Shown: piece after piece, positions 4,943-23,921 of the stretch
Position numbering within the stretch: position 1 is the stretch's first letter
Layout: each line of letters starts with the position of its first letter
Virus record (IMG/VR): IMGVR_UViG_3300027861_000133
Span: 1 to 31,054 of that record
Direction: 5' to 3' (one strand)
DNA: 31,054 nt
Origin: a virus
Notes under the pieces: model-generated
The model's database searches: none
What the model saw: the letters and a program-made list of their open reading frames with translations, nothing else
What the model was told of the DNA's origin: nothing
Translations under genes and position numbers: made by a program

Positions 4943-4988
4943 TACTAAAGATAGAATATGCCATTTTAAATTCATATATTCTATAGTA
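4943..4988 (+). other. imperfect hairpin in the gap before the 5026 gene
   Basis: TACT-aaag-ATAGAATATG (4943-4960) pairs with CATATATTCTAT-AGTA (4973-4988), with a 2-nt bulge and a 4-nt internal loop, around a 12-nt AT-rich loop. No T-run follows, so termination is uncertain. It separates the fibre-like gene from the gene carrying the duplicated helicase segment, in the longest gap (83 bp) of the virion block. Confidence 0.4.
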
Positions 4989-5025
4989 TCCAAATCTAAA
5001 ATTAACAAGCTGTAAGGAACTCGCT

Positions 5026-5850
5026 ATGCCGATTGACACTCTTAAAACTGGTAAGAATATTAAAAAATTTGGATACCCTCAATTAGATAATATAGCAGGT
5101 GGGATGACTAGGCCAGACCCAAATTTAAACACAGGAACATCAAGAGCGCAGGCTAGGGTTAATCAAGCCGTGGCTATGAGGTCCAATGCCGATAAAGTAG
5201 AGGATTTTCAAGACGAAGACCAGACTTATAAGAATAAATTATCTAAAAAATCTGGTTGGGGAAGGTTTTTTGGTGCTGTTGTTTTGGGTGGTACAGCTTT
5301 ATTAACTGGTGGTACATCCCTTGCTATAGCTGCCGCTGCTGGTGTAGGAAGCAGGCTTGGTAATGAAGCTGGTGAATGGCACGCTGATAAGCATGATAGA
5401 CCTGATGAATTAAAAGAAGAGAATGTTAATTATTTTAAAGATGATGTTAAACAAATAAATCGAGATATAGAGCAATTTGATGCAGATTTTGACAAAAATC
5501 AATGGATTGATGCTGGTAGGGATGCTTGGACTGCTTATAATTTAGCTAACACCGCTCAGGCATATGGGGCTAAGGCTGCTACTTCGACTACCGAAGCAGT
5601 GGTAAATAAAACGCCGTTGGAGGGAGCAAAGAAGATGTGGGGAGATTCGGCTGAATGGGGGAGTAATCTCTTTGGAAAGAAGACAGGTGATGTAGCAAGT
5701 TCTGATGAGGTATTTTCTGCTTTAAATAACATTGATAGCAATGCCTCAGAAACAATTACTCCAATTGAAGTTGTTAATGTTGATGAAGATAATGCTTGGA
5801 CCTCTACTGAAAATAATGATAAAAACTGGTTAAATTGGAATTCACAATAA
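5026..5850 (+). CDS. virion-associated protein with glycine-rich membrane segment; 5' end copied from the helicase gene
   Basis: 274 residues from the ATG at 5026, which has an SD (AAGGA, about 9 bases upstream). Residues 3-29 are nearly identical to residues 171-197 of the DnaB-type helicase, one substitution (K for I) in 27, and the match holds at DNA level. If instead the start is the ATG at 5104 (AGGTGGG just before it), the protein begins MTRPDPN and the copied segment is untranslated leader. Residues about 83-115 form a Gly/Ala-rich hydrophobic stretch (FFGAVVLGGTALLTGG, then TSLAIAAAAGVGS), resembling glycine-zipper membrane segments of phage proteins that enter the host envelope. The rest is polar and helical. 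It lies in the virion block, so an internal or ejected role is likely but unproven. Confidence 0.6.
   Translation: MPIDTLKTGKNIKKFGYPQLDNIAGGMTRPDPNLNTGTSRAQARVNQAVAMRSNADKVEDFQDEDQTYKNKLSKKSGWGRFFGAVVLGGTALLTGGTSLAIAAAAGVGSRLGNEAGEWHADKHDRPDELKEENVNYFKDDVKQINRDIEQFDADFDKNQWIDAGRDAWTAYNLANTAQAYGAKAATSTTEAVVNKTPLEGAKKMWGDSAEWGSNLFGKKTGDVASSDEVFSALNNIDSNASETITPIEVVNVDEDNAWTSTENNDKNWLNWNSQ
5032..5112 (+). repeat. 81-bp duplicated segment, copy 1 (in virion gene)
   Basis: These 81 bases match 22143-22223 on the opposite strand at 80 positions; the one difference is an A/T change in codon 12 of the virion gene. The match stops sharply on both sides. Both copies are read in the same frame, giving 27 residues that include TLKTGKN and GYPQLDNIAGGMTR. 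In a helicase this stretch leads into the Walker A domain, so the helicase copy is native and this is the derived one. Confidence 0.95.
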
Positions 5851-5865
5851 AATAGGTACAATACA

Positions 5866-6642
5866 ATGCCATACAATGATGTCAACACAAATTTAGAAGA
5901 CCTTAAGTCTGGTTTTAATTTAAGCGATGAAGTTAGTGGAACTCTTTTTGATTACGATACATCTGCTGATAAAAATCTTTGGGGAAGTTTCTCTGGAAAT
6001 AAATCATTAATACAAGATACCCTTACGATGAATAATGCTAAGATAAATCAAAGTGGGAAGGGCTTTCAATCAATGGGTGCTAAGACTGAGCTTAAAAAGA
6101 CATTAAGTGATACCGCTAATTCGCAAGTTGGAATGCAGTTAGATGATACTATGTATGGACAATATAAGAATAAAAATAAATGGCTTGACGAGAATATGGC
6201 AATAATATCTGATTCTATTTTAGCTGGAGATACGACAGTTGATACCAATCCTTATAATGAGAATGGTGGTGGTGATGGTGATGGGGATTCTAATCCATCT
6301 GGCTATGGTGACGGGACTCCTTCAATAGGGGAGACATACCGCGATAATAATAATATAGATTGGGTTTTTGGCTCAACGGGATGGGTTGAGGTGGATACCT
6401 ATAATGACCAGTCTGATGATGACTATGGATATAGCGATGTTAGGCTAAAGAAAGATATTAATTATTTATTCACTATGAATAATGGAGTACCAATTTACAA
6501 CTTTAAATATAAATGGTCTGATGATGTAAGTATTGGTACAATGGCTCAGGATATAGAAGACATGATTCCTGAAGCTGTATCACATGATTCTAATGGATAT
6601 AAAATAGTAAACTATTCAAAGGTATTTAACTATGCCTCCTAA
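5866..6642 (+). CDS. small virion protein with C-terminal S74 intramolecular chaperone/protease domain
   Basis: 258 residues. The first 120 are polar and helical. Residues about 130-150 are a flexible Gly/Asp/Asn linker (NGGGDGDGDSNPSGYGDG). The C-terminus from residue 190 carries SDVRLKKDI, the signature of the S74 endosialidase-type chaperone, with S190 as probable nucleophile and K195 as its partner. IYNFKYKW and IGTMAQDIEDMIPEAV follow, both typical of the family. S74 domains trimerise fibres and then cut themselves off. Here the domain is short: it ends right after VNYSKVF, without the long C-terminal coiled coil, and there is no beta-helix fibre in front of it. The stop overlaps the next gene by 11 bp. 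The domain call is secure; its job in so small a protein is unclear. Confidence 0.75.
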   Translation: MPYNDVNTNLEDLKSGFNLSDEVSGTLFDYDTSADKNLWGSFSGNKSLIQDTLTMNNAKINQSGKGFQSMGAKTELKKTLSDTANSQVGMQLDDTMYGQYKNKNKWLDENMAIISDSILAGDTTVDTNPYNENGGGDGDGDSNPSGYGDGTPSIGETYRDNNNIDWVFGSTGWVEVDTYNDQSDDDYGYSDVRLKKDINYLFTMNNGVPIYNFKYKWSDDVSIGTMAQDIEDMIPEAVSHDSNGYKIVNYSKVFNYAS

Positions 6643-8483: not shown

Positions 8484-11400
8484 ATGCCATTAACAGAAAA
8501 TTATTTAGGCACTCTAGATAAAAAGCAAAAAAAATCATCTACTCAGGATTACTTAGCTGAGAGATATGGTCAATTAGGCGGAGAAGAGACTCGAGAAGAG
8601 GGTGGTCTTTATGACTTTATGGGTTCTGCTCTTTGGGGAGCAGCATCTGGATTAACTTGGGGAGTTTCCGATTTTGCAAATAAGAATGATGAAGATTGGT
8701 CACAGATGAATTCGGCAGAAAGGTCTGGTTGGATTCTTGGAGAAGGTCTATCATTGATGGCACCCTATGTTGGTCCTTTTGCTTTACTTGGCAGAGGCTC
8801 AAGATTAGCTGTTAAGGGAGCAAATAAGTTTGTAGGCAAATCTGTAAACAAATTTAGTAAAAAAGTCGTAGGTGACGTTGGTGATAAGGTTGTTGATGCT
8901 GTAGTTAAGCACAGTAATACTGCCACAGATGCTCTTGGTAAGACTATTATTAATAATGGTGGAGACCTCGCTAAGCAACTCACAAAGAAAGTGGGTAAAA
9001 TGACAGATGATGCCGCTACTGGGGTTAGATGGACAAATCAATTAAAAGGCTCTGTTGACGATGTATCTGCCGCCACAACTAATCTAGTTAACGAGACTCA
9101 TTCTATTGTAAAGTCAGTATTTAAAGAGGCTGGTCAGGAAATTAATGATGATACAGTTAGGCGTATGGCTGAAACTATGGTCAAGGAGATTGGTTCAAGT
9201 AAGAATGTATTCGTTAATGATATTAGTGAATTAGTCACAAGAGGGTTAATGAATAAATATCCCAATTGGATGGGAGACACGGTATCTAAGTATGTAGGCA
9301 TGGCTGCTAATGATATGGCTATTATGACTATGCATAGTGGTATTTCTGGTTTGATAAAAGAGCAGTCAAAGGGTGAGGAATTTAGTACAACTTCAACTCT
9401 TGGTCACTCTGCTATGATGGCATTAATGTTCCCAGCTGTTAGAGGTCTTATTAAAGGTGGTGGAAGTGATAAGATGTTAACTGGTATAAAAGGATTCTTT
9501 TCAAGATTTAAGAAAACTGATTATGATGCTATGCTTGCCGCTGATGGTGGAGAAACTAATGTAAAGAACCTTTTGAGAATTATGGTAGAAGGAGAGGGAA
9601 AGGCTGTGTTTGGCTCATCTCATATTAAGGATTCTTTTTGGCAAGTTGGTAAAAATAAGTTTCATGGAGGCAAGCTATTAGATAAATTAGAGAAGGGCGA
9701 AGTAACTGGGGCTGAAGCCGTAACACTTTTGAAAAAAATGAATCTAGCTTCATCTAAGGAATTCATGAGAACATGGAAACCTAAATATGCTAAAGATTTA
9801 ATGTGGTCTGTCCCAAGGATGGCAGTTGGTGTTCTCGCTACTAATCAATGGATGCTTGACCCCGAAGCATGGAAGGGAGATATGGAATCATCTGAAATTG
9901 CTTCTCATGTATTCATGTCTGCTATAATGACAAAATCAAGAGGACATTGGGGAAAGAAAGACCAGCAACTTTATTTTAATAAACTATCTCCTTATCAAAA
10001 TTTATCAGCAAGATTAGGTCTTAAACATGAACAATTAAATGATTTTATTCAGTTTCATGATGATACAAAAGCCTATACTGGACTTGGTGCTGCTGGATAT
10101 AATACGCCAACTGGTAAGAAGATAACAGAAGTTTACGATAGGGCTTCTAAAACTGATGGAGATGCAAGTCAATCTGCATTTGTTGGGAATGACCCTAGAC
10201 ACTTACTTGCTCTTGAATTAGAGCCTCTCTATAATACTATGGGACAGTTTAAGGAAGGGTCAAGTTTCCGAAAAATTAACGTAAGGAACTTAAATAAGAA
10301 TGCTTTGGAAGAGCTTATTGTTGGACTTGAAACCATAGAATTAAAAGGGGCTGGAAATAGGACAGTTAAAGAGCTTGGATTTGAAGCTGCGATGGTGGAA
10401 GTAACTGATGAAGTTGGAAAGGCTGGTGAGAGGGTTTATAAGCAATTTTTAGAAGAAATAAGTAATGAACTTGGTCTTGATGTTGGTATTCTAAATAAAG
10501 ATGGTAAAATGTCTGCTAAATTTTTAGTTGGTGACGAGGGACAAAGTTGGGGAGTGCTTAGGGACGTTGGTCAATTAATTGAATCATTTGATTCTATGAA
10601 TATTATATCTGCTTCTGGCGAATTAAATTTACGAGATGCATTTGCGAGAAATAATCAAAAAAGGCTGGAAAATAACCAACCTGAGATTTCTATAGAAGAA
10701 TATGTAAAAAGAGCAACAGAGATTACTAATAAGTGGATGGGAAGACTTAATGCAGAATATGAGGGTGCTAATTATGTTCAGCATCTCATTGACGGTAATC
10801 CATTCTTTGAACACATTATTAATGCTAAATATGTTAAAGCAACAAATAGATTAATGACGGTAGCTATGGGGACTGGAGCAAATGAGAGTGAGAAGAATTT
10901 TACAAGGTCTATAGATGCATTTTTTAGGGTTAATGGGAAAAATGAATATTATTCTCTTGAGAGTATTATAAAAAGGTTGCCAAATGTCAACGACAAGGGG
11001 CAAAATGAGCTTGACCCAAGCGATGCAAAATACAACAATGTTAATAAGATGATAGAGACAGTAGAGATGGCATATAATCTTGTTAATTTAAGGAAGGCTG
11101 CTACTGGAGCTGGAACAAATCATGGTGGTAAAAAACCTATACCTTCTAATGAAGTAAGTACTTTAGAAAATCTATTTAAAACAAATTTTAATGAAGAGGG
11201 TCTTCCCATATTCTTTAAAGATGCAAGGATTAAGGATATGATGATGAGTCGAGTCCTAAGAGTTAAAGGGTTTGACCAAAGAGCAATGAGAAGTGCTAGT
11301 AATTTATTTGATGAAAATCAAGCTCGTATCAATCTTGAAGGAAAAATTGAAATACTAGACAGAGATGTTGTCATCAATAGGATGAAAAAGGATGGTAGTA

Positions 11401-14400
11401 CCCAAGAAGATATACAGAGATATTCTGATGCTTTTGATACTGTTGAAAGAACTTTAGGCAAAGACAATCTTTTAAGATTGAAAGAAGTTGCTGTTGGTGA
11501 AACGAAAAATGATAAGCAGGATGTATTAAATGTAGATAACCACATAAATGGCATAATTCGTGAGGCTGATAAATTAACTTCTTTTAAAATTAGGGATTTA
11601 GAAACTAAAGTAACAAAATCATTAGATATATTGGATAAGATTGGCGGCTCAGAATACGAACAGCAATTAAAAACCATATATAATAAATTAGAAAATATTG
11701 TTAACTCACAGAATCCAAAAGAGGGTACAGTTGGAGCAGATGTAGGCTCTGTTAAAGACCCAATTACAGAACTTCGTAAGCTATCTGTAGAAATAGATAA
11801 ATTAAAAAAGACATTTGAAGGTCGTGACACAAATTTAAATAAAGAGCATCAGTCGTTGATAGATGAATTTGTTTTATCTCTTGAGACACTTGAGACACAC
11901 ATAAACCCAGAGACAAAGAAATGGGAAATGCCTACTTCGGACTTGATTAAAGTTGGGGATAGAGACATTACTGATATGAGTGAATATGAGATAAGAAAGT
12001 TGATGATTGAAAATCCTCAAAAAATCTTAATTAGACTTCATGGATTTGAAGCTGACTCTAGGGCGCAAGTACATAAACTTGTTAATAGCTTATTAAACGC
12101 AACTGATGGAGCGGATTCTCTTAGTGCTGGGTCAATTAGAAAACATACTGATAACCTTGTAAATAAAATTGGGGAAGCGTTGGGGAAACAAGAACAATTT
12201 AAGGAATTATCAGATGTATTAGATTATGTTGAAAAAGGTGGTGCATTTGCATTCTCAGAAATACGTGAGATTGTTTCTACAGTTCAGAAGGAATTAAATA
12301 GAGATATTGTATCTAAGAAACCAATATTGAAGGACGCTGTCCACGCCATTGACCATCTACAAGAAAAATACTCTATGCATGACCATACTAAGACTATTGT
12401 TGAGCTTGCTACGGATTTTGGATTTGCTAAGGATGGTAAAACAGACCCCGATTGGGAAAAACTTGTATTAAGTAATCGTGATGGAGCATTTAAAGAGGTT
12501 AAGGACTATATTAGTGCCAAATTCTCTGACCCAGCCGAGGCTAAATCTAAGTGGGAGGAATTTGAACAATATGCTCCTGGGATAATAAATTCAATTAAGA
12601 GTCAAGGCATTGCTACTCAGGTTTCTCTTCAGGTTGTAAAGGGAGCAGGTCATAATGTACTGAATGTTGATGGGAATAAAATAACAAAAAGATTCGCAAC
12701 AATGAAATACATTGAAGATTCAGAGATTCGTATGGCATTTGTGGATGAAATTATGCCAATTATTGATTCGAGGGGAATAGCTAGAAATATAAATCTATCA
12801 TCATATGACAATCCTGCCGAGATACAAAAAGCAATTAGTAGTGCTTGGAGAAGGTCAGTCAATGCTGAAAAGCCTCTTGCCGATGCTATTAGATTTGGAG
12901 GATTCTCTAGAAATGAACTGGAGCAATACATTCGAGACTCGAGTGATACAGATATTGGTTCTGAACAAATTGTTTATGTTAGGCTTTCTCCAAAAGATAA
13001 GATGGTTGTCCCAATAAACCCCACTAATAGAAGGTTTATAAAGAAAAGATTTGATGATTGGTATGATGACTTTATGACTGACCCTAACATTACAAGAGAT
13101 ATACAAGAGACTTTTGAGTTATATATATCACAGCTTAAGGACGCTAATCTTGATAATAGAGCAATTATTGAATTGAAGGTTCTATTACCTTACCTTTCAT
13201 ATACTGGTAAGAAAGGGGAGATTGTTAAGCTTTTCACAGAACTTACTGGAACTGGTGTAGATAAGAATAGGCAAGATAAATTATTTAAAATACAGGCAAA
13301 TATATTCAAAAGGGGGTTTCTTTCCGATGGTGGAACCACAACTCCATTATCTGTTGAGGCTAATGATTACATTATTGAAAGTAGAAGTGGAGTAGTTAAA
13401 TCAGCGGCTTTAAAGTACAGGGGTCAGGGGAATAGATTGGTAATGAAGTTTTATGATGATGAAGCTGCTGAGGACTGGGTAGAAGGCAGAGATGTGCAAG
13501 ACCAACATGAATTAAATAATAGAAGAACTGTTCATCTTGAGAGACAAAGACAAATAGATTTATCAATGGATGATAATTTAAAAGGTCTTCTTAGGCAAAG
13601 TCAGTTGGAACTCTCTGAACAGGGAAGTCTGAATTCGTCTAGGCTTGATGGAATCAAATATGCCTCAAGAGGTCTTATGGCATATGTCATGGATAATAAA
13701 GCCCAATTTAATATAAATTTTCTTGATAGCCCAAATGGTGCTAAAACAATTATAAGTGCTGTTGGCGAAAATCAACTACTTGGAAAAGGATATTTAGTAT
13801 ATGACCCAAAAATTGCAGGTGCTATGGGTGATGCAGATATTCTATTAGGCACATCAGCAGCTAAGACTCTATGGGGGAATAGTTTTCAACAAAGAGCAAA
13901 TGGGTCATCTATGTTAGTGTCTCCGCTGAGAGTTAGTCAAGGCAACTTTGCTGATAATATAAGAAACAACTCATCGGATATAAATAAAATGTATATAGGT
14001 CTTGACGAGCTTTCTGTTTCTTTTACGTCTAAGATGGGTGGAAAGGTTACTGTTCCTTCTTCTATATTTGATTGGCAATCACCAGCAGTCGTTAAACAAT
14101 GGATTGCTAAGTCTAATTTTAAAGAGTCTATTGGTGAATTTAAGAAGATATATGGCGATTCTAATGGAGAAATAAGTACTGAAGTGGCTAGAAGGTTAAT
14201 GGATATTGAAATAGAGAACGGCAATCCAATGACAGATGGGCATAGTAGTACTCTGAAATTAATTCTTGAGTTTGGTGGCTCTTCTGAAATGCCATACATA
14301 ACAGCAGCTGTTAATAGGCTTGCTAGGAACTTTATTATAAAGAATGTTGGTAAAAATGTTATAGATACTGGCTCAGATATGTTTACTACCCCAGATTTAG

Positions 14401-17400
14401 AGGGAACTCTAGGCAATTCCTTTCATGTGAAATTATGGGACAAAACTGATAACCCAGGAAGTAAGCATTACGAGAGAGTTTCGCTTCAATATGGGGGCGT
14501 TGGCGTTGGAAAATCATCAACACATAGACCTATTGGAGAAGGTAGCAATCCGCTACAAGATGAATTATTTATTGCTCGGGATAAGAATGGGATAGACTGG
14601 ACTGTAAGATTAGTTGGTGGTAAGTGGGTATTTAATTCTACGTTTTATGATAAAATGGCTAGGATAGATGCAGAGACTAGGGAGAATAGACTTCATCATA
14701 CGCAGGATAGAAGAATAGATAATACACAACTTAAAACCCTTGATGGCTCTGGAGTTGAGGGCGTAATAGAGGCACGTGAAATATATGAATCTGGTAGACA
14801 TGGCACAAGGAAAGATAGACATGGTGTAGATGTGAATACGGATGGTGAAATTTGGAGGATTGGTATTGAGAATTCATTAGCAAGGATAAATGAAATTGCA
14901 GCAGAGTACAACTTGAATTATTATCAAGTGCATCAACTTATTAATGATGGTATTACTAGTGGTAGAAAGCTGGACAGGGTACAAACAAATAGGACAGGCA
15001 AGAAGGTTTATAATGATGTAATTGTAAGAGCTAATTTAAAAAAGTTTCTTGGTAAAAAATTAAATGGACAGGTTAAAGGTGGTAAGATTCAATTTGGTAT
15101 GTTGAATACCGCTGTCCCATCTTTAGGAAAAGACCAAGTTGTAAATAGGGTTCAGCGCATAAATGAGGATATGAATGGACTAATCGAAGTAAATGTCAAT
15201 GATTTGAGAAATATAATGCAAAGGGATAATGATGGTGACCATTTATATACACAAACTAGACCTGACCCTGAAATATTAAATGCCTTTTTACTTGAGCAGG
15301 GGAAGATAAACGATTTCCCAATTTTCTCAAACAATGTTAAAAAGGGTGTGAAGACATTATCTGATTTGAATGCATTTGGTTTAGATTTGAGTAAGATAAA
15401 AGCTGGTTATAATTTAGAGAATACTGGTTTTACTCAATATGCAAATCAAGTTGAAATTCAATCAAGGGCGATTGGAACTTTTATTGGGCAGAGAGGGGTA
15501 TTAACATGGGCTTCTAGGATGGGGTTGAATTTAGGTGGTGGAAAAGATGGTAAGGGTGGACTATCACCTGCTTTAAAGAAATTCTGGGAAAGATTTGATG
15601 TTGGTAGTAAGGAGTTTAATTGGCTAGAGAAATTTATGGTTGTTGCTCAAAATTCAGTTGATTATCACGATGGTAAATTGCCAATATTTGATACAACCGA
15701 AATTTTACTTGATTTTGTTTTATATGGTAAGATGTCGGATGCAACAAAAGATATATTAATGAAAAGAGACGCAAACAATGGTCAACTGAAAAAAATGATT
15801 GATGATGGAGAGACTATATTTCATGACCAGTTTACAGGTCCAAATGTTTTTAAAGGCTCAGATGCTATGCAAAGGAAGAGTTTGGGCGTTGTGATTAGAA
15901 CTCTTAAAAAGGTATCAATGGTTTCAAATGATACTTATGATGAGAAAGGTAAGAGAACCCCTCTTCCTCATGAATTTGAAAGAGCCTATAGAAATATTGA
16001 ACAATTACTTAATCCAGAGACATCGACAAAATATATAGCTAGGCAGGTTTATAGGGAAATAGGTAGAGAATGGAATGAAGATGCGAAGGGTAGTCTTACT
16101 AAGGAGTTTATAGATACGTTTTTTCCCAATAAGATACATCAAAATTACACCAGCAGGGATAAAATAATGGATGAACTTGCTTACTATAATGGGAATGTGT
16201 GGTCGCAAGTTAAAACTGATGTAATTAATTTTAATGTAAAATCGGCACAAGAAGGCTTAGAACTTTCTATTCCTGGGAATATGTTAAATAAGCTTATGAC
16301 AACTAGATTTGGTGAGTCGATATATGGTGGGGTAGATGTGCCTAACAAGGCTCAAGTTGATTTACAGAGGTCTATTGGGAATTACATTGATGGTCTTGAA
16401 CACTATATTGAGGTCGCAGAATATCAGAAAAAACAAGGATGGGCTACTGAGAAGGGGGAAGCACCCACTATAGACATGACTAAGCTTGCTGGTGGTTTCG
16501 ATAGTAATGTTAGAAAAGCTATACAAAATGGTTTTATAATTGAAGTTTTATCAAATAAAATAGGGGTTCTAAAGTCATCATTAGATTTTGAGTTATCAGA
16601 TTCATTCCCAAGTAATAGAAAAATAAATAATCTTAAAAGACAAATAACAACAACTCAAGAGTCTATAAATCATATGGATAGGTTGGCAGTTGAAAATCTT
16701 GTTATTTATAAGGATACGACAGATTTATCTATTCAAAGAGGTGATGGGGAGTATATGAATCTAAGCTGGATAGATAAAGGGCGAAGTTATACAGCTGACC
16801 CTAAGAGGGTTTCTGTTTATAGGATAAGCGATAAGGCGCATCAATTTGGGACAGGAGATTTCGACCAGAATACCTTGAAAAAATCTAAGATAAGTTATCT
16901 TGATTTAGAATATTTAGGTGATTATACTTCTGCGACTGGTGGCAAAATTAGAAAACAAAAAGGATACACTTACGTAGTCGACTTAAATAAAAAGAATAAA
17001 TTAGAAGCGACTGATGTTGAAGTAACTTATGGAGATGCTCTAAGTAGGTTTACTGCGAGAGATGTTCAGGACGTAAGGAACTCTCTTGGAGACTCCTATG
17101 ATTCCTATGAAGCAGAAAGGACTACTCTATTAAAGAGGTTGTACGCAGTTAGTATACAAGCTGGTGCAAACGCTAAGGAAAGTGCTGTTTTCAAAAACTC
17201 AATTTATGGAGAGGCTAAAAATGAGACTGGGTATGATTTAAATAGATTTATTGATAAATGGGCTGCTAAGATAGATGACACAATACAAACCGACTCTATG
17301 AAAGATGGGCTAGAGCTTTTAATTGGCGATTTATTATCACCATCTGTGTCTAGCTCAAAATATACAAAAAAGGGCAATTTTGAGGTTCCAGTGTTCCAAA

Positions 17401-17789
17401 TCAATAAAGTTATACTTGATAATGTGTTTGATTATTTAAAAGAAAGCAGAACCAATAGGCTTGATATTATGCAAAATATCATAAGCGGATGGGAAAGAAC
17501 TAAAACTGGTGAAAACCCAGATGATTTAAGGGCTGATATTTATTATGAGCAGGGATTTGATAATTACAAATTCCCAACAGAAATGGCTGACCCTCTTAGG
17601 AGTCTACTTCAATATGATAGGATTCTCTACTCATCACCAGCTTTGCAAGATGCAAAAAGACGATACTATATCCATGCCACTGAAATTCGTGATAAAAAAG
17701 TTGGTGGAAGAATAATGCAAACAGAGACACATAAGAAAACTAGTAAAGATAAAAAAAGGAAAGCTTTTCCAAAGGATGGGTGCTTTTAA
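8484..17789 (+). CDS. giant virion protein, candidate packaged two-barrel RNA polymerase (DxDGD motif)
   Basis: 3101 residues. D2248-N-D2250-G-D2252 (15225-15239) fits the DxDGD motif whose three Asp bind catalytic Mg in two-double-psi-barrel RNA polymerases (beta-prime NADFDGD, YonO, QDE-1, crAss-like virion polymerases). The context also fits. G2232 precedes the first Asp by 16 residues, as in E. coli beta-prime (GKAIQLHP...NADFDGD), and VPSLG at about 2211-2215 matches the upstream P-T-L turn. After the motif, LYTQTRPDPEILNAF occupies the place of MAVHVPLTLEAQLEA. A possible first barrel is GKGYLVYDP to TSAAK (1767-1794), with K1794 a candidate lysine; this part is weak. Residues about 40-115 are hydrophobic/glycine-rich and could be a virion or membrane-interacting domain. 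The rest is helical and unassigned. I see no T7/N4-type polymerase motif set. It sits between two large internal-type proteins, so I infer it is packaged, ejected and transcribes early genes. Confidence 0.7.
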   Translation: MPLTENYLGTLDKKQKKSSTQDYLAERYGQLGGEETREEGGLYDFMGSALWGAASGLTWGVSDFANKNDEDWSQMNSAERSGWILGEGLSLMAPYVGPFALLGRGSRLAVKGANKFVGKSVNKFSKKVVGDVGDKVVDAVVKHSNTATDALGKTIINNGGDLAKQLTKKVGKMTDDAATGVRWTNQLKGSVDDVSAATTNLVNETHSIVKSVFKEAGQEINDDTVRRMAETMVKEIGSSKNVFVNDISELVTRGLMNKYPNWMGDTVSKYVGMAANDMAIMTMHSGISGLIKEQSKGEEFSTTSTLGHSAMMALMFPAVRGLIKGGGSDKMLTGIKGFFSRFKKTDYDAMLAADGGETNVKNLLRIMVEGEGKAVFGSSHIKDSFWQVGKNKFHGGKLLDKLEKGEVTGAEAVTLLKKMNLASSKEFMRTWKPKYAKDLMWSVPRMAVGVLATNQWMLDPEAWKGDMESSEIASHVFMSAIMTKSRGHWGKKDQQLYFNKLSPYQNLSARLGLKHEQLNDFIQFHDDTKAYTGLGAAGYNTPTGKKITEVYDRASKTDGDASQSAFVGNDPRHLLALELEPLYNTMGQFKEGSSFRKINVRNLNKNALEELIVGLETIELKGAGNRTVKELGFEAAMVEVTDEVGKAGERVYKQFLEEISNELGLDVGILNKDGKMSAKFLVGDEGQSWGVLRDVGQLIESFDSMNIISASGELNLRDAFARNNQKRLENNQPEISIEEYVKRATEITNKWMGRLNAEYEGANYVQHLIDGNPFFEHIINAKYVKATNRLMTVAMGTGANESEKNFTRSIDAFFRVNGKNEYYSLESIIKRLPNVNDKGQNELDPSDAKYNNVNKMIETVEMAYNLVNLRKAATGAGTNHGGKKPIPSNEVSTLENLFKTNFNEEGLPIFFKDARIKDMMMSRVLRVKGFDQRAMRSASNLFDENQARINLEGKIEILDRDVVINRMKKDGSTQEDIQRYSDAFDTVERTLGKDNLLRLKEVAVGETKNDKQDVLNVDNHINGIIREADKLTSFKIRDLETKVTKSLDILDKIGGSEYEQQLKTIYNKLENIVNSQNPKEGTVGADVGSVKDPITELRKLSVEIDKLKKTFEGRDTNLNKEHQSLIDEFVLSLETLETHINPETKKWEMPTSDLIKVGDRDITDMSEYEIRKLMIENPQKILIRLHGFEADSRAQVHKLVNSLLNATDGADSLSAGSIRKHTDNLVNKIGEALGKQEQFKELSDVLDYVEKGGAFAFSEIREIVSTVQKELNRDIVSKKPILKDAVHAIDHLQEKYSMHDHTKTIVELATDFGFAKDGKTDPDWEKLVLSNRDGAFKEVKDYISAKFSDPAEAKSKWEEFEQYAPGIINSIKSQGIATQVSLQVVKGAGHNVLNVDGNKITKRFATMKYIEDSEIRMAFVDEIMPIIDSRGIARNINLSSYDNPAEIQKAISSAWRRSVNAEKPLADAIRFGGFSRNELEQYIRDSSDTDIGSEQIVYVRLSPKDKMVVPINPTNRRFIKKRFDDWYDDFMTDPNITRDIQETFELYISQLKDANLDNRAIIELKVLLPYLSYTGKKGEIVKLFTELTGTGVDKNRQDKLFKIQANIFKRGFLSDGGTTTPLSVEANDYIIESRSGVVKSAALKYRGQGNRLVMKFYDDEAAEDWVEGRDVQDQHELNNRRTVHLERQRQIDLSMDDNLKGLLRQSQLELSEQGSLNSSRLDGIKYASRGLMAYVMDNKAQFNINFLDSPNGAKTIISAVGENQLLGKGYLVYDPKIAGAMGDADILLGTSAAKTLWGNSFQQRANGSSMLVSPLRVSQGNFADNIRNNSSDINKMYIGLDELSVSFTSKMGGKVTVPSSIFDWQSPAVVKQWIAKSNFKESIGEFKKIYGDSNGEISTEVARRLMDIEIENGNPMTDGHSSTLKLILEFGGSSEMPYITAAVNRLARNFIIKNVGKNVIDTGSDMFTTPDLEGTLGNSFHVKLWDKTDNPGSKHYERVSLQYGGVGVGKSSTHRPIGEGSNPLQDELFIARDKNGIDWTVRLVGGKWVFNSTFYDKMARIDAETRENRLHHTQDRRIDNTQLKTLDGSGVEGVIEAREIYESGRHGTRKDRHGVDVNTDGEIWRIGIENSLARINEIAAEYNLNYYQVHQLINDGITSGRKLDRVQTNRTGKKVYNDVIVRANLKKFLGKKLNGQVKGGKIQFGMLNTAVPSLGKDQVVNRVQRINEDMNGLIEVNVNDLRNIMQRDNDGDHLYTQTRPDPEILNAFLLEQGKINDFPIFSNNVKKGVKTLSDLNAFGLDLSKIKAGYNLENTGFTQYANQVEIQSRAIGTFIGQRGVLTWASRMGLNLGGGKDGKGGLSPALKKFWERFDVGSKEFNWLEKFMVVAQNSVDYHDGKLPIFDTTEILLDFVLYGKMSDATKDILMKRDANNGQLKKMIDDGETIFHDQFTGPNVFKGSDAMQRKSLGVVIRTLKKVSMVSNDTYDEKGKRTPLPHEFERAYRNIEQLLNPETSTKYIARQVYREIGREWNEDAKGSLTKEFIDTFFPNKIHQNYTSRDKIMDELAYYNGNVWSQVKTDVINFNVKSAQEGLELSIPGNMLNKLMTTRFGESIYGGVDVPNKAQVDLQRSIGNYIDGLEHYIEVAEYQKKQGWATEKGEAPTIDMTKLAGGFDSNVRKAIQNGFIIEVLSNKIGVLKSSLDFELSDSFPSNRKINNLKRQITTTQESINHMDRLAVENLVIYKDTTDLSIQRGDGEYMNLSWIDKGRSYTADPKRVSVYRISDKAHQFGTGDFDQNTLKKSKISYLDLEYLGDYTSATGGKIRKQKGYTYVVDLNKKNKLEATDVEVTYGDALSRFTARDVQDVRNSLGDSYDSYEAERTTLLKRLYAVSIQAGANAKESAVFKNSIYGEAKNETGYDLNRFIDKWAAKIDDTIQTDSMKDGLELLIGDLLSPSVSSSKYTKKGNFEVPVFQINKVILDNVFDYLKESRTNRLDIMQNIISGWERTKTGENPDDLRADIYYEQGFDNYKFPTEMADPLRSLLQYDRILYSSPALQDAKRRYYIHATEIRDKKVGGRIMQTETHKKTSKDKKRKAFPKDGCF

Positions 17790-20476
17790 TGTCAGTAGCG
17801 TGTAATGGTGAAAAAGAACTAAAACAGTGGTCAAAAGACGCAGATGCTCTTCTCGCAAGGTGGGACAATAACCCAGCTATAAGGAAAAGGTATACAAAAA
17901 GAGTTGGCAATGGTGAAGAATTTATGGGAGATGAAGCTCGAAACGGTCTCTATGAGTGGATGAGAGAAAAAATGAATATGCCATTTAATGAGAATTTACC
18001 ATTTACAAAGCAACAAATTAATTTAGCAGAAAGATGGATAGACCACTTTGGTAGGAATCTGGAGGGTAGATTTACTAATCTTGCTTATATTGTTCCAGAA
18101 GGTCTTTCTAAACAAGACCCATCTTCTAGAAAACTTCATTTAAGGATGAATGATATATTGAATGAAGAAAGGGTTAAGATAAATACTCTTGGAACTGGTA
18201 ATGCACTAATATCTCTTAATTTAATAGAAGCCTATATTGACGATTATGGGAAGAAGGTTGGTAAAAAGAAGCTTAAAGACATAAGAGATGTTAGGCAAAG
18301 GATGATTAATGCAGATTCTGAGGAATCATATAATGAATGGTCTAATAAGTTTGGTAAAATTATGGGGGAGAATGAAGGGAAGATAATAAGACATTTTGAA
18401 GAATTGCTTGAGCTTACACCAAAAGAATTTGAGAAAATAGGCGAAAAAGATTTTAAGGTTTTAAATGAAAGGACGGGTAAGGAAGAAGATAGAACCTACA
18501 ATCCAAATACTGTTCGCGCTGCTAAAGAAGCAAGGGGTTTATTAAAAGATATTGGTATGACGTATGTAAATGGTCTTACTAAAATTGCTGGTATGATTGT
18601 AGAGAAATATAGATATGGCAACCCAGCGAGGGGAGAAGAATTATCCGATAGAGTATTGTCTCTAAAGGTAGACCTAGAGAGAGATGTAAAGAAAGGGGGA
18701 TATTACCCTCATATTTTATTTGACCAACTTATTGACGTAAAGAGAAAATTATCGGAGTCTTTTGACCCCAAAAATGGGAATTCATTAGAATGGGAAAGGA
18801 CAGTTAGTAGTTTAACTGATAAAATTAATGCATCTGTTCAGGCTAATGCCGACCCAGACCACGCTAGAAAAAGAAATCCTTTGTTACAGAGAAGTTATGA
18901 GAAAGACCCAATTCTCGCTATAACTACATATGCAAATGAAGCAATCCAGTTTAATAAGTTAGCACATACCCAAGAGGTTTATTTAAAAACACTAAGAGAT
19001 ATACCTAACCATAAGTCATTATTTACGGAAGGATTATCGAGGTTTATTCAAGAGCAATATGCTGTTTTTACAAGAGGCACAACTGGAAGGTCTGCCTTCG
19101 CTAACAACGCAGTTACTGTTTTAAACTCCATTCAAACAGCAGCCACAATGGGGTTAAATATCACTGGGGCTATTAAAAACGCAGCGTCTATAATGCATTT
19201 CTATACAAGAATAGGGCGTAAATCAACTAAAGATGCAGTGCAAGCTTATAATCACAATCAAAAACTTGGGGTAAGTGGTGAAGAGCAATTTGGTTTTGCT
19301 GATTTTGTTAGAAAAGCAGAAAAAGAAGCTGGGTTTTTATTCACAGACGCTGCTGGTGAATTATATTCTGAGGGTACAGCTAGTTTAAAAAGTATGATGG
19401 GTGAAGGTACTCATGATTTCGACCCATTAACTGGCAAAGTAACTTTCAATGGAACTCCAGTTAAGGATTTACTTCTTAAGGCTGGTCAATGGACTGTTGA
19501 AAAGGGATTATTTTTCCATAGATATACCGAGAATGCACAAAGAAGGTGGATGTATAGAACTGCTTTATATCACCAATATAATAAGCTTTCAAAAATGGGT
19601 TTAAAATCTGGTGGTCCTAACGGGGCGCAAGCAGAAGCGAAAAAATGGGCTTTGAAGATGGTTAATAGCTGGGCTTATGAATATTCTGCTCATGCTAAAT
19701 CAAAAATGGTTAGGGGGGAATGGAGAACTATTGAGGAAATGGATGATGGGCAAGTTATAAGTAGGAAAATGAGGAAGACGGGAGGAAAACAGGCTCTTTC
19801 TGAAATAGCTTTTCATTTATTACATTATCCTATGTCTTTAGCTGAAACACAATATGACCAATTATCCAAAGCTCATAAAGCGTATTTAGCGGGACAAGGA
19901 TTTGAATCAGAGGAAATACAGTGGGCTGCTAGACAAGCTGGGGTTATGTCTTTGATTGCTCTTGGTAGTGTTGTTTTTAATTCTGATTTATCTAACATAT
20001 TTGAGAATGAAACACTTAACAGACTCCAAAATGTCGCAAAAGACATAACGGAATATGACAATAAAGATAAAAGTACATTTGGATTATTGGGTGAATTTAC
20101 TGGTCCAACAATAGGGGCTTTAAAGAGGGCGTTAATTGCTCATGGATTAATTGACGTAGACGAGTCCACATTAAATAAGATACTTTTTGGTAATGTAAAT
20201 TTTGCGGATGTGCATGATGAAAAAGCACAAAGATTAGATAAATACAAATGGGGAACATTTGCTGGAACTACTGTTAATAAAATCTTACCATCTTTACAGG
20301 CTGGGAGGGGTAGGGATTTAATTACTCACTATTTAAAGCTTTATCCAAATGATTTTACTAAAAAATATAATGCTTTGCTTTTCAATAGAAAGCCAGCCAC
20401 CAAAAAAGCAAGTACAAAAGGTATGTCTCCAGATTTGAAAGCAAGTTTAGCACTGCTTAAGGGAATAAGCTCTTAA
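17789..20476 (+). CDS. large virion/ejection-type protein, 895 residues
   Basis: The ATG at 17789 is chosen because it overlaps the giant gene's TAA (TAATG), as at 1399, 1779 and 4265, with AAAGGA 12 bases upstream; a GTG at 17780 would add three residues. The first 380 residues are charged and helical (KKVGKKKLKDIRDVRQRM). A middle segment at about 440-465 (TVLNSIQTAATMGLNITGAI) and another near 715-735 (QAGVMSLIALGSVVF) are moderately hydrophobic and could contact membranes. The C-terminus is basic. It resembles the large polyvalent or internal proteins that follow virion polymerases in other phages. No catalytic motif is recognised. A role in ejection or as a partner of the polymerase is an inference from position and size. 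Confidence 0.5.
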   Translation: MSVACNGEKELKQWSKDADALLARWDNNPAIRKRYTKRVGNGEEFMGDEARNGLYEWMREKMNMPFNENLPFTKQQINLAERWIDHFGRNLEGRFTNLAYIVPEGLSKQDPSSRKLHLRMNDILNEERVKINTLGTGNALISLNLIEAYIDDYGKKVGKKKLKDIRDVRQRMINADSEESYNEWSNKFGKIMGENEGKIIRHFEELLELTPKEFEKIGEKDFKVLNERTGKEEDRTYNPNTVRAAKEARGLLKDIGMTYVNGLTKIAGMIVEKYRYGNPARGEELSDRVLSLKVDLERDVKKGGYYPHILFDQLIDVKRKLSESFDPKNGNSLEWERTVSSLTDKINASVQANADPDHARKRNPLLQRSYEKDPILAITTYANEAIQFNKLAHTQEVYLKTLRDIPNHKSLFTEGLSRFIQEQYAVFTRGTTGRSAFANNAVTVLNSIQTAATMGLNITGAIKNAASIMHFYTRIGRKSTKDAVQAYNHNQKLGVSGEEQFGFADFVRKAEKEAGFLFTDAAGELYSEGTASLKSMMGEGTHDFDPLTGKVTFNGTPVKDLLLKAGQWTVEKGLFFHRYTENAQRRWMYRTALYHQYNKLSKMGLKSGGPNGAQAEAKKWALKMVNSWAYEYSAHAKSKMVRGEWRTIEEMDDGQVISRKMRKTGGKQALSEIAFHLLHYPMSLAETQYDQLSKAHKAYLAGQGFESEEIQWAARQAGVMSLIALGSVVFNSDLSNIFENETLNRLQNVAKDITEYDNKDKSTFGLLGEFTGPTIGALKRALIAHGLIDVDESTLNKILFGNVNFADVHDEKAQRLDKYKWGTFAGTTVNKILPSLQAGRGRDLITHYLKLYPNDFTKKYNALLFNRKPATKKASTKGMSPDLKASLALLKGISS

Positions 20477-20492
20477 TAATAGGAGTTATAGT

Positions 20493-20552
20493 TTGCCTAT
20501 CCCCAAACAGTTTTGGTGGTTACTAATCTATAAAATGGTAATTTTCGTCTAA
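20493..20552 (+). CDS. possible 19-residue membrane peptide with TTG start
   Basis: AGGAG at 20481-20485 is followed 7 bases later by TTG at 20493, opening 19 codons to a TAA at 20550-20552. The peptide would read MPIPKQFWWLLIYKMVIFV, strongly hydrophobic and aromatic. The SD placed just after the stop of the 895-residue gene argues that something is translated here. The size and the non-ATG start keep confidence low. Its end overlaps the convergent leftward ORF at 20523-20717. Confidence 0.25.
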   Translation: MPIPKQFWWLLIYKMVIFV

Positions 20553-20717
20553 CATTATATATAAAGATAGTGATAATATACTTATTTCTAGTCCGTAGTT
20601 GTATTGAAGTTTATTAAAGGGATAGTGTATTGTAATTACAAATGGGAATACTCCTATAGATATATTGCCTAAATCATTTTTTCTGAAAAATATTAAATTC
20701 CTTAGTATGCTTTTCAC
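20523..20717 (-). CDS. hypothetical hydrophobic protein, 64 residues
   Basis: It has a GTG start at 20717 just after the resolvase stop (TAATGTG) and ends in TAG. After a basic N-terminus (KSILRNLIFFRKND) come two hydrophobic stretches (ISIGVFPFVITIHYPF and ISILSLSLYIML) and an acidic end (DENYHFID). I recognise no family, but codon content and spacing after the resolvase make it the likely last gene of the leftward operon. It faces the virion operon end on, and no clear terminator lies between the two. Confidence 0.5.
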   Translation of the reverse strand: MKSILRNLIFFRKNDLGNISIGVFPFVITIHYPFNKLQYNYGLEISILSLSLYIMLDENYHFID

Positions 20718-20718
20718 A

Positions 20719-21240
20719 TTATGTCCATCTTCTTTGTGCTTCCATCAAGCTATGCCCATATAGAGCAATACATATAGCATCTGCTGTTCTTAAAGTAGCT
20801 TTTATTGTACTTTGTTCCGTCGCAATCTCCTTCAACTTTTTCTTCCTTTCTTGTTTGATTTTAGGCAATTCACCGAATGTCTTTTGCCAAGCTTGTGGGG
20901 TCACAAGTTCTGTCTTTATTCCGAAGGCGCAAAGAATGCCTCTCCATATCCCGTAATTCATACCGAATTTAAAAGCAGAACTTCTTCCATCTGTTGGGAA
21001 AGCATGGACTTTCTCCAGAAAACAAGTAATATATGGTGATTCTGATTTTAACATACTTATAAAGCCAACCATTTCTTCTATCGTTTCAGGACAGTTGTGA
21101 GAGGTGAATATTTTAGCACCAAAATCATATACGTTTGATTTGATAACTGCCATCCCACCGCCCTTCCCAGGGTCAATCCCCACTACGAGGGTTGCCAAAG
21201 AGCCAGTTCTTTTTTTTATCTCTTTTCCATTTTTTCCCAT
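20719..21240 (-). CDS. RuvC-like Holliday-junction resolvase
   Basis: 173 residues with an RNase H-like fold signature. D23 lies in the first strand (LVVGIDPGKGGGMAVI), E76 in the fourth (CFLEKVHAF) and D154 in the C-terminal helix (TLRTADAICIAL), which give the metal-binding acids of RuvC-type resolvases. TPQAWQKTFG (114-123) is common in phage members. It would cut branched DNA made during recombination and replication before packaging. It is the penultimate gene of the leftward module, after helicase and methylase. Its start overlaps the small zinc-ribbon gene upstream by 68 bp; a later start would reduce the overlap but no better ATG precedes the first Asp. Confidence 0.85.
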   Translation of the reverse strand: MGKNGKEIKKRTGSLATLVVGIDPGKGGGMAVIKSNVYDFGAKIFTSHNCPETIEEMVGFISMLKSESPYITCFLEKVHAFPTDGRSSAFKFGMNYGIWRGILCAFGIKTELVTPQAWQKTFGELPKIKQERKKKLKEIATEQSTIKATLRTADAICIALYGHSLMEAQRRWT

Positions 21241-21412
21241 GACTATAATTTCTCCCGTAATATTCGTTTATTCCACATTTGTAACATATATTTAATGTTG
21301 TATCGCTAATAGATGAGTGATATTCATAGTATTTATCATCACTAAAATTGACTTTGCACATTTGACAATGCTCTATTGTTGCTAATCGTGGTTTTATTTT
21401 TACTTGTATCAT
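21173..21412 (-). CDS. small zinc-ribbon protein, 79 residues
   Basis: Four cysteines in two CxxC pairs (HCQMCKVNF at about 15-22 and NICYKCGINEY at about 42-50) predict one zinc site, followed by a basic tail (SHGKKWKRDKKK). It overlaps the helicase end by 71 bp and the resolvase start by 68 bp, a large overlap even for this compact genome. The cysteine pattern is too regular to be chance. DNA or RNA binding, or a partner role with the resolvase or helicase, is possible. Confidence 0.55.
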   Translation of the reverse strand: MIQVKIKPRLATIEHCQMCKVNFSDDKYYEYHSSISDTTLNICYKCGINEYYGRNYSHGKKWKRDKKKNWLFGNPRSGD

Positions 21413-22733
21413 TGGCTTCTCTTGCTTCGTCTGAATTCATATAGAATTTACATTTACTTCCATTAAACCCCATAATATAAGTTCCTATCTTGCCATATCT
21501 TGCTTTATCACATACTACTTCTATTTCATATTTATTATATTTATCATCATTGAAATTATATCCATAAAATACTAGTAATGCTGTTTCTGCTGTTTGTTCT
21601 ATAGTTCCACTTTCTGCAAAGTCTGCTAATCTTGGTCTAGGTTCCAGTCTCTTTTCAATTTCTCTATTTAATTGAGATACTAATATTCCTGCACAGTTTT
21701 CTTTCTTACATACCCATTTATATTCTGTTAATATTTCTTCTATTTCAAATCTTCTATCTTTACTTACTTTGTTTTCTACTTTTATTAATTGAATATAATC
21801 ATCTACTACTACATCTGGTTTCTCTCTTTGTATTTCACGCATAGCATCACTTAAAGTGCGTATGTCATCATACATTATAAGATTACTTAATGTTTTCTTT
21901 AGCTCATCAGCCATCATTTCTATTGCTTGCATTCTTCCTTCTTCAATATCGCCTACTCTTAATTCTTCATATTTCAAATCTTTACTTTCCATTATCATGA
22001 ATTTCTTAATCATTTCTACATTAGACATTTCTCTGTTGAATACCATTACTCTGTAGCCTTGTTTTAATAAGCTGGCTACTATATTGATAGTTAGTGTCGT
22101 CTTTCCGTGTCCAGGTCTTCCTCCTATCACTGTGAGTTCCTTCCTAGTCATCCCACCTGCTATATTATCTAATTGAGGGTATCCAAATTTTATAATATTC
22201 TTACCAGTTTTAAGAGTGTCAATAGTGTCGTTGATTACAGTTCCTATTTCTTTCTTTTTACTTGGGGCTATTTCTAATAATTCATTTACCAATGATGCAT
22301 GATTGTGTAACATAGTTTCTACATTGCTTTCTGTATCTTGGAATCCTGTATTGTATAATTCATATGCTGATTTAATTGATTGTCTTTTAATAAACTTTTC
22401 CCATACTATTCTTGCATACTGTTCTGAATTCGCTGTTGTTGGTACTATCTCTGGTAATCCTGTTATATAGTATAAAGATAGACCTTCATCAGAATATTTA
22501 TCTGACTCTTTGATTCTATCTCCAACCGTAACCATATCTATAATCTCTCCTTCTCTGTGCATCTCACTCATTATAGACCATAGATTTTTATTCTTACTAT
22601 GATAGAATGCATCCCTATCCCTTATCCATCCATTACATTTTTCAAATACGCTTGAGCCATCAATTAGAATTGCACCTAAAACAGCTTCTTCCGCTTCGGT
22701 TGAATGTGGATATATCTTTATTGGAGGTTCCAT
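21342..22733 (-). CDS. DnaB-type replicative helicase
   Basis: 463 residues, the normal length of DnaB-like helicases. The N-terminal domain (about 8-110) starts STEAEEAVLGAILID, typical of DnaB. The RecA-like domain has Walker A GGRPGHGKTT (204-213), Walker B VVVDDYIQ (308-315) and VSQLNRE (352-358). The hexamer unwinds DNA at the fork. No primase domain is fused. The SD GGAG precedes the ATG and the start overlaps the methylase end by 16 bp. Residues 171-197 are the source of the 81-bp duplication found in the virion gene at 5026. The last 22 residues (from about NDTSKNKTT) look like a poorly conserved tail. Confidence 0.93.
   Translation of the reverse strand: MEPPIKIYPHSTEAEEAVLGAILIDGSSVFEKCNGWIRDRDAFYHSKNKNLWSIMSEMHREGEIIDMVTVGDRIKESDKYSDEGLSLYYITGLPEIVPTTANSEQYARIVWEKFIKRQSIKSAYELYNTGFQDTESNVETMLHNHASLVNELLEIAPSKKKEIGTVINDTIDTLKTGKNIIKFGYPQLDNIAGGMTRKELTVIGGRPGHGKTTLTINIVASLLKQGYRVMVFNREMSNVEMIKKFMIMESKDLKYEELRVGDIEEGRMQAIEMMADELKKTLSNLIMYDDIRTLSDAMREIQREKPDVVVDDYIQLIKVENKVSKDRRFEIEEILTEYKWVCKKENCAGILVSQLNREIEKRLEPRPRLADFAESGTIEQTAETALLVFYGYNFNDDKYNKYEIEVVCDKARYGKIGTYIMGFNGSKCKFYMNSDEAREANDTSKNKTTISNNRALSNVQSQF
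22143..22223 (-). repeat. 81-bp duplicated segment, copy 2 (native, in helicase)
   Basis: This is the helicase copy of the 5032-5112 repeat, 80 of 81 identical and in inverted orientation in the genome. It encodes the linker from IDTLKTGKN to GGMTR just before Walker A. It fits the DnaB family pattern, so it is the ancestral location. Confidence 0.95.
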
Positions 22734-23557
22734 AATTGCTCCTGTGTGTTTATGGGTTCATAATTAGTTATAACTAGTTCATTTTTATAGTCTTTTCCTG
22801 TCATTTGCCCTGCATATTTTATAGGTATCTTTTTTATTTTAAAATCATTATAAGTATCATTGACATAATCGTGGTCATCATATGAAATCATAAATTTTCC
22901 ACCTTCACTATCTATCCTTTTACACATTTCAAATAAAGCATTATGGTCATCCATATTTAAAGAATGAACATAATAGTCTCCTCTTTCTCCTGCTATAACA
23001 TACGGAGGGTCAAGATACCAAAAATCATCTTCTCTTGTTGGATATTTATGAAATAATTCTCTGAAATCTAAATTTTCTATCATGGTATTTTCTAATTTCT
23101 TCCTACTTGTTTTCAAACAATTCCACATTTTATCATTCCACTCAGATTCTTTTGCTATAGGGTTTTGGAAGTTTGTGTTAAAGGCATTTTTTATAATATA
23201 GAAATATTTAGAAGCCCTTTCTGGGTTTGGCATATCTCTGTACTTAATGTCTTCCTTTAACTCTTCCTTAAATGCATCATATAATGTTCGACTTTTAAGT
23301 ATTGACTCACAATAATGAATGAATTCTGGATATTTTTGTATTACAGACAGGTACATATTTACTAAGTCATTATGCTTATCATTTAAAATATTAAGTTCTG
23401 CTTTGCCTTTTCTAAAGAAAATACTGCCTCCTCCTAAAAATACTTCAATATATCTTTTATGAGGTGGCATCATTGGTATTAATTTTCTGCCCAATTCAAA
23501 CTTTCCTCCCATATAGGGAATTATTACTGGGCATTCAAACCATCTGGGGTCAGGCAT
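22718..23557 (-). CDS. dam: D12-class N6-adenine DNA methyltransferase
   Basis: 279 residues with the Dam/D12 layout: YMGGK (15-19) at the N-terminal SAM-binding loop, EVFLGGG (38-44) as motif I, a central variable recognition region, and DPPY (183-186) as the catalytic motif IV. It transfers a methyl group from SAM to adenine N6, and may protect phage DNA from host enzymes or mark replicated DNA. The recognition sequence cannot be read from the protein. No restriction enzyme is adjacent, so it is an orphan methylase. Its start overlaps the small gene before it by 8 bp and its end overlaps the helicase, so all three are probably co-transcribed from the promoter near 23926. The symbol refers to the family only. 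Confidence 0.9.
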   Translation of the reverse strand: MPDPRWFECPVIIPYMGGKFELGRKLIPMMPPHKRYIEVFLGGGSIFFRKGKAELNILNDKHNDLVNMYLSVIQKYPEFIHYCESILKSRTLYDAFKEELKEDIKYRDMPNPERASKYFYIIKNAFNTNFQNPIAKESEWNDKMWNCLKTSRKKLENTMIENLDFRELFHKYPTREDDFWYLDPPYVIAGERGDYYVHSLNMDDHNALFEMCKRIDSEGGKFMISYDDHDYVNDTYNDFKIKKIPIKYAGQMTGKDYKNELVITNYEPINTQEQLWNLQ

Positions 23558-23759
23558 CTTTATAGTTCTCCATCCAATCTGTTAAAAATTGTCTAGCCAT
23601 CCTTTTATTTATTTCAAAAGTTTCTACTATATAAGGAGTTGCTCCAAACATATTAGTTTCTCCAGATTCTCTTAAATCATCTAAATAATTAAATACATCT
23701 TCTTTCATTTCATCATATTGCCAATCTCTTTGGTATTCTTCTATTTTATCTATATCCAT
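23550..23759 (-). CDS. conserved small phage protein with NMFGA motif
   Basis: 69 residues from the ATG at 23759, chosen because AAAGGAGG ends about 4-5 bases before it; an upstream ATG at 23831 would read through the inverted repeat in the leader. The sequence RESGETNMFGATPYIVETFEINKR... is a pattern I associate with many phage small proteins (SG-x-TNMFGA, a helix, then a basic helix ending in W). The second half looks like a helix-turn-helix of 30 residues, so DNA binding is possible. It is the first gene after the regulatory gap and heads the methylase-helicase-resolvase unit. Confidence 0.75.
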   Translation of the reverse strand: MDIDKIEEYQRDWQYDEMKEDVFNYLDDLRESGETNMFGATPYIVETFEINKRMARQFLTDWMENYKDA

Positions 23760-23778
23760 TTTTCCTCCTTTAGTTAAT

Positions 23779-23850
23779 TGGGCGGACATTGTAGATGTGA
23801 ATTCATTGACCCTGACATCTATGTATATCACATTGTGTTACATCCGCCCA
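23779..23850 (-). other. inverted repeat in the mRNA leader, next to the SD
   Basis: TGGGCGGA (23779-23786) and TCCGCCCA (23843-23850) are a perfect 8-bp inverted repeat, much more GC-rich than its surroundings. They close a 72-nt segment that ends just before the SD of the NMFGA gene. In the leftward mRNA the stem would lie about 11 nt upstream of AAAGGAGG. A role in translation control or transcript stability is likely. A T-run does not follow, so it is not a standard terminator. Confidence 0.5.
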
Positions 23851-23859
23851 AAATAAAGA

Positions 23860-23921
23860 GGATACTTAGCATTAGAACTCGGGAACCTTGCACAGTTTTC
23901 ACTGCTTGAAACTAAGCACCC
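23860..23921 (-). ncRNA. structured 5' mRNA leader, 62 nt
   Basis: On the leftward strand GGGTGCTTAG (23921-23912) pairs with CTAAGTATCC (23869-23860): 10 pairs, two of them G-U, valid only in this direction. Inside, CAGT-GAAA-ACTG forms a hairpin with a GNRA-type tetraloop. The TATAAT box ends at 23926, so transcription is expected to begin at about 23921-23919, which puts the stem at the exact 5' end. A 5'-terminal hairpin could protect the mRNA or sense a ligand. It does not match a riboswitch I can name. Confidence 0.5.

Follow-up and report, generated by a model that had tools for sequence, protein, structure and literature searches.

An inverted, in-frame copy of a helicase gene segment near the start of a predicted virion protein gene in an uncultured phage

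How does a piece of a replication gene come to lie, inverted and in frame, at the beginning of a gene for a predicted virion protein 17 kb away? The question arises from a 31,054-nucleotide stretch of DNA from an uncultured phage (IMG/VR record IMGVR_UViG_3300027861_000133; hereafter the window), in which a short stretch of the phage's own helicase gene occurs a second time. A repeat search of the window returned two inverted arms of 81 nt, at 5032-5112 (plus strand) and 22143-22223 (minus strand), identical at 80 of 81 positions, and no other long repeat. Self-BLAST of the window gave the pair an E-value of 1.9e-35, with the second-best self-match at E=0.16; chance cannot be the source of the match. 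The sole mismatch falls at position 32 of the 81, where the copy has A and the donor T. Both arms share a reading frame, IDTLKTGKNI[K/I]KFGYPQLDNIAGGMTR, which corresponds to residues 171-197 of the helicase. Repeat search, self-BLAST and translation all bore out the observation, in an earlier note on this DNA, that the two segments match on opposite strands and in the same frame with one K/I change.

The donor segment lies within the gene for a DnaB-like replicative helicase of 463 aa (21342-22733, minus strand), whose product matched DnaB_C (E=1.1e-46) and, in profile searches, the PHROG replicative helicase family (E=8.7e-76). Residues 171-197 lie where the C-terminal ATPase domain begins, with their codons shortly before those of Walker A; the last residue of the insert is helicase residue 197, before the GRPGHGKT motif. 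Since the insert contains neither Walker A nor the ATPase core, it is not a fusion of a functional-unit DnaB helicase domain. The donor gene is full length and intact alongside the copy, as expected of a templated insertion, and the proposal that the helicase was the source of an in-frame copy held. The recipient gene (5026-5850, plus strand) encodes a protein of 274 aa for which profile searches returned only a weak match to a PHROG of unknown function and no Pfam match; from its location among structural genes, beside a neighbor matching S74/tail fibre families, we infer that it is a virion protein. Its codons 1-2 (ATGCCG) are ancestral, codons 3-29 are the inserted copy of helicase codons 171-197, and the ancestral body resumes at 5113.

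Relatives that lack the insert reveal the state of the site before insertion. By searching helicase relatives for the stretch 5000-5140 we found a genome, IMGVR_UViG_3300009173_000077 (G001), in which window positions 5000-5030 and 5113-5140 match 19448-19418 and 19416-19389, respectively, one base apart. Where the window reads TAAGGAACTCGCT ATG CCG, the 81 bp and then CCA GAC CCA, G001 reads TAAGGAACTCATT ATG CCA CCA GAC CCA; the corresponding protein N-termini are MP followed by the 27 residues and PDPNLNTGTSRAQ in the window, and MPPDPNKNTGTSRAQ in G001. No base of the target was lost at the insertion point relative to G001. When viral_contigs was scanned with the left and right sides of the junctions only G001 matched, and single-sequence searches with the 5026 protein in phages and viral_contigs gave no matches; homologs of this protein were instead found via its neighbor genes. 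The homologs at loci L057, L056 and L060 (L057 and L056 being near-identical to each other in this stretch, with the upstream protein 87% identical) also carry no insert and have short, variable N-termini, starting MTEGQAL and MPHEPGHEGRTKGQAL. The empty target site is therefore present exactly in G001, and three further loci are without the insert. Because these relatives lack it, the insert is derived: it added 27 codons after codon 2, is specific to the lineage of the window and is known from one assembled metagenomic genome only, and the N-terminus is a variable part of the recipient protein. Of the two observations that the earlier note had set against its reading, relatives without the segment and a chimeric join, the former was found and no sign of the latter was seen.

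The direction and relative age of the copy can be read from the same relatives. The mismatched residue is Ile in the helicases of 16 of 16 relatives and in that of the window itself, and Lys in the copy; the substitution therefore occurred in the copy. The copy matches its own helicase at 80 of 81 positions and that of any relative at 78 of 81 at most, which indicates that the copying was local. With one difference to the donor, at least three to the relatives, and helicase genes of the window and G001 that are 93.2% identical over their whole length, the insertion postdates the split from G001. Taken together, these comparisons point to a well-resolved, recent copy-and-paste mutation, in which the insert has begun to drift (Ile to Lys). 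A scan of the window, the whole of G001 and parts of 11 helicase relatives (~240 kb in total) detected no older insertions of a like kind; for most of the 11 it covered ~20 kb around the helicase, so that distant pairs could escape it.

It had also been suggested that the copy supplies the start of the 5026 gene, either as its first residues or as a leader with a start codon of its own. The comparison with G001 speaks against this, as the ribosome site and the ATGCCG at 5026-5031 are ancestral: the window shares its conserved leader, its ribosome site and ATG-CC with G001, and the Shine-Dalgarno/anti-Shine-Dalgarno duplex is the same in both (-6.1 kcal/mol). The insert thus lengthens a pre-existing N-terminus, with translation presumably starting at the ATG at 5026 and the product likely carrying 27 additional residues near its N-terminus. 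An in-frame ATG within the insert (5104-5106, plus strand), which follows AGGTGGG without spacing, is a possible, less likely alternative start; initiation there would give an almost ancestral protein (MTRPDPN versus MPPDPN). A second suggestion, that the repeat could permit inversion of the 17 kb between its arms, found no support either. The window is colinear with the repeat-free G001 across both sites and indeed throughout 515-24161, and only a single orientation of the enclosed segment was seen; recombination between the arms would separate the N-terminal part of the helicase from its ATPase core and join each to other sequence.

What allowed such an insert to persist may be sought in its frame and its location. 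Of the 437 pieces of 81 bp that the helicase gene yields in each sense phase, all stay open in the coding phase and only 7 and 20 in the other two; selection for an open gene therefore accounts for use of the helicase frame. Random genome pieces of 60-120 bp stay open in 9% of cases. A structure model of poor quality (mean pLDDT 49.5; four sequences), drawn on solely for the N-terminus, assigned low confidence and no structure to residues 1-37, and the N-terminus of the recipient is probably disordered. Lacking Walker A, the additional peptide is most likely without any role related to the helicase.

We consider a templated insertion, made by a template switch out and back within the phage genome, the most probable origin of the insert (probability about 0.6). 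Synthesis at the 5026 gene, during replication or repair, would have left at the third base of codon 2, jumped to the helicase gene 17 kb off, reproduced 81 nt of the sense strand there and resumed on the original template at the immediately following base, so that 27 codons were gained and the target sequence stayed intact. The product would have survived because the frame was kept and the landing site was a length-variable, probably disordered N-terminus; the insertion may well have been nearly neutral. The left junction shows 0 nt of homology and the right one no more than 1 nt, and the microhomology of 2-5 bp that the MMBIR model predicts at junctions (PMC2621351) is thus absent.

The surroundings of the site contain two shared words that might bear on how a switching strand was guided. 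The intergenic leader (4943-5025, plus strand), with a hairpin at 4951-4960/4975-4984, is 94% identical to that of G001, compared with 66-78% for the flanking genes. It contains GTATCCAAAT (4986-4995, plus strand), which is complementary to ATTTGGATAC, the exact center of the insert and donor (offset 35 of 81), and is a possible anchor: the insertion point lies 36 nt past this 10-mer, and an anchored nascent 3' end would adjoin the start of the donor. The leader also includes the 9-mer AAGGAACTC (5014-5022, plus strand), which contains the ancestral Shine-Dalgarno sequence of the 5026 gene and recurs at 22134-22142 (minus strand), abutting the 3' end of the donor. A 10-mer match in such a register is expected in ~0.0006 of random pairs (about 6 in 10,000) and a shared word of the 9-mer type in ~0.0024, both coincidences having been noticed post hoc, after several possibilities had been examined. 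Both words occur in G001 and are therefore older than the insertion. Had the shared 9-mer primed the switch, AAGGAACTCGCTATGCCG should stand between insert and target, and it does not; at most, AAGGAACTC could have kept the two regions together. The 10-bp anchor could account for the register, and neither it nor the 9-mer by itself accounts for both jumps. A broader reading, that this phage group practices long-range inverted template switching, steered by short inverted complementarity such as the 10-bp anchor and able to append coding segments across genes in one step, we regard as doubtful.

The main rival to the template switch is capture by end-joining, in which a double-stranded piece of 81 bp, left over from degraded phage genomes, was joined into a blunt double-strand break. 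Such a capture accommodates the blunt junctions (0-1 nt of homology), the absence of target loss, and a small insert from a distant source in either orientation, but it calls for a cleanly blunt break as well as end-joining activity and gives no reason to expect the register with the leader 10-mer. The two shared words are suggestive, favoring a switch held by pairing somewhat over capture of a blunt fragment, which we consider unlikely, if clearly the strongest of the alternatives. Artefacts of all kinds together are improbable, and most of that small weight falls on amplification or library preparation, where a double chimera of the MDA type could have entered the assembly. MDA chimeras resemble the insert in being mostly inverted, distant joins that beyond 10 kb often lack homology (34.8% have at least 2 bp; Lasken and Stockwell, 2007, PMC1855051), and the insert is carried by a single assembled genome. 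A typical MDA chimera, however, has one join accompanied by an intervening deletion (PMC1855051), whereas here an artefact would need two jumps that return to the exact next base and keep all target bases and the coding frame, and it would have to dominate the consensus; moreover, the copy has a substitution of its own, a base absent from the helicase of every relative.

An error of assembly, in which the assembler duplicated or misjoined the repeat, is conceivable because the window is a metagenomic record of IMG/VR, but it is the least credible of the explanations. A misjoin would link non-neighbors, and the flanks of the insert are exactly contiguous in G001, with colinearity throughout 515-24161, which makes an assembly join very unlikely; the one-base difference between the arms, a change in the copy, would be unexpected as well. 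The view in the earlier note that this is not a simple assembly duplication therefore stands. It is also highly unlikely that the helicase piece was retained for a function, whether as a second start (AGGTGGG-ATG), in binding the replication machinery or through pairing with the leader mRNA. The intact frame, the internal ATG with its purine-rich upstream sequence and a 10-bp duplex predicted to form between leader and insert around the ribosome site are compatible with such a capture. Against it, the piece comprises part of a fold and no Walker A motif, it falls within the unstructured, low-confidence residues of the model, its sole change is non-synonymous and it occurs in no relative. An RNA role of the pairing was rejected, as leader and insert together fold no better than shuffles (z=0.74), and the region had no relevant Rfam match. 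A mobile element or insertion sequence was likewise discarded: there is no target-site duplication relative to the empty site, and the insert is a plain piece of the helicase gene.

Templated insertion is already known from other settings (PMC2621351, PMC7954356), of which the phage case is a clean further instance. The insertions attributed to MMBIR-FoSTeS (Hastings et al., 2009, PMC2621351) are likewise short, inverted copies of a distant locus whose donor stays intact, and arise when single-stranded 3' ends find a template on any nearby single strand; the present insert differs in lacking microhomology of 2-5 bp, in returning to the exact next base and in its phage setting. Short-range template switches, described from great ape genomes by pair-HMM (PMC7954356) and from yeast proteins (PMC8604942), share the inverted copy and the brief excursion and return of the polymerase and occasionally alter protein sequence, but they are local, whereas the phage donor lies 17 kb away. 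A literature search of partial coverage found no recognizable published equivalent in a phage. Phage structural proteins vary at their N-termini, and the way in which they gain length can seldom be observed; in this phage donor, recipient and empty site are all readable, which resolves one mutation step to the base: a segment copied rather than moved, inverted, in frame and with zero bases lost. If such events recur, a systematic survey of viral genomes for within-genome copies of coding scraps could measure the rate at which phage proteins lengthen.

Several further features of the region were observed. The leader at 4943-5025 is almost invariant across five loci, occurs once in the window and probably serves the late operon as a regulatory or processing element. 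Downstream, the gene that follows 5026 (window 5866-6642; L052:2447-3466, minus strand; L057:6436-7416) has homologous N-terminal halves in three genomes and differing C-terminal ends. The version in the window ends in a Peptidase_S74 intramolecular chaperone, those of G001 and L057 in a Hint self-processing domain (Vint/Hom_end_hint-like, below the Pfam cut-off) that starts DCF(V/I)EGTKIFM, as though two unrelated self-processing ends had been exchanged. A single open reading frame of 3101 aa at 8484-17789, amid structural genes, probably encodes a giant virion-associated protein. Finally, DNA identity between the window and G001 is ~88% over 18896-23894 (helicase, resolvase and methyltransferase) and ~73-82% across most of the aligned structural region, an uneven divergence that suggests a mosaic history.
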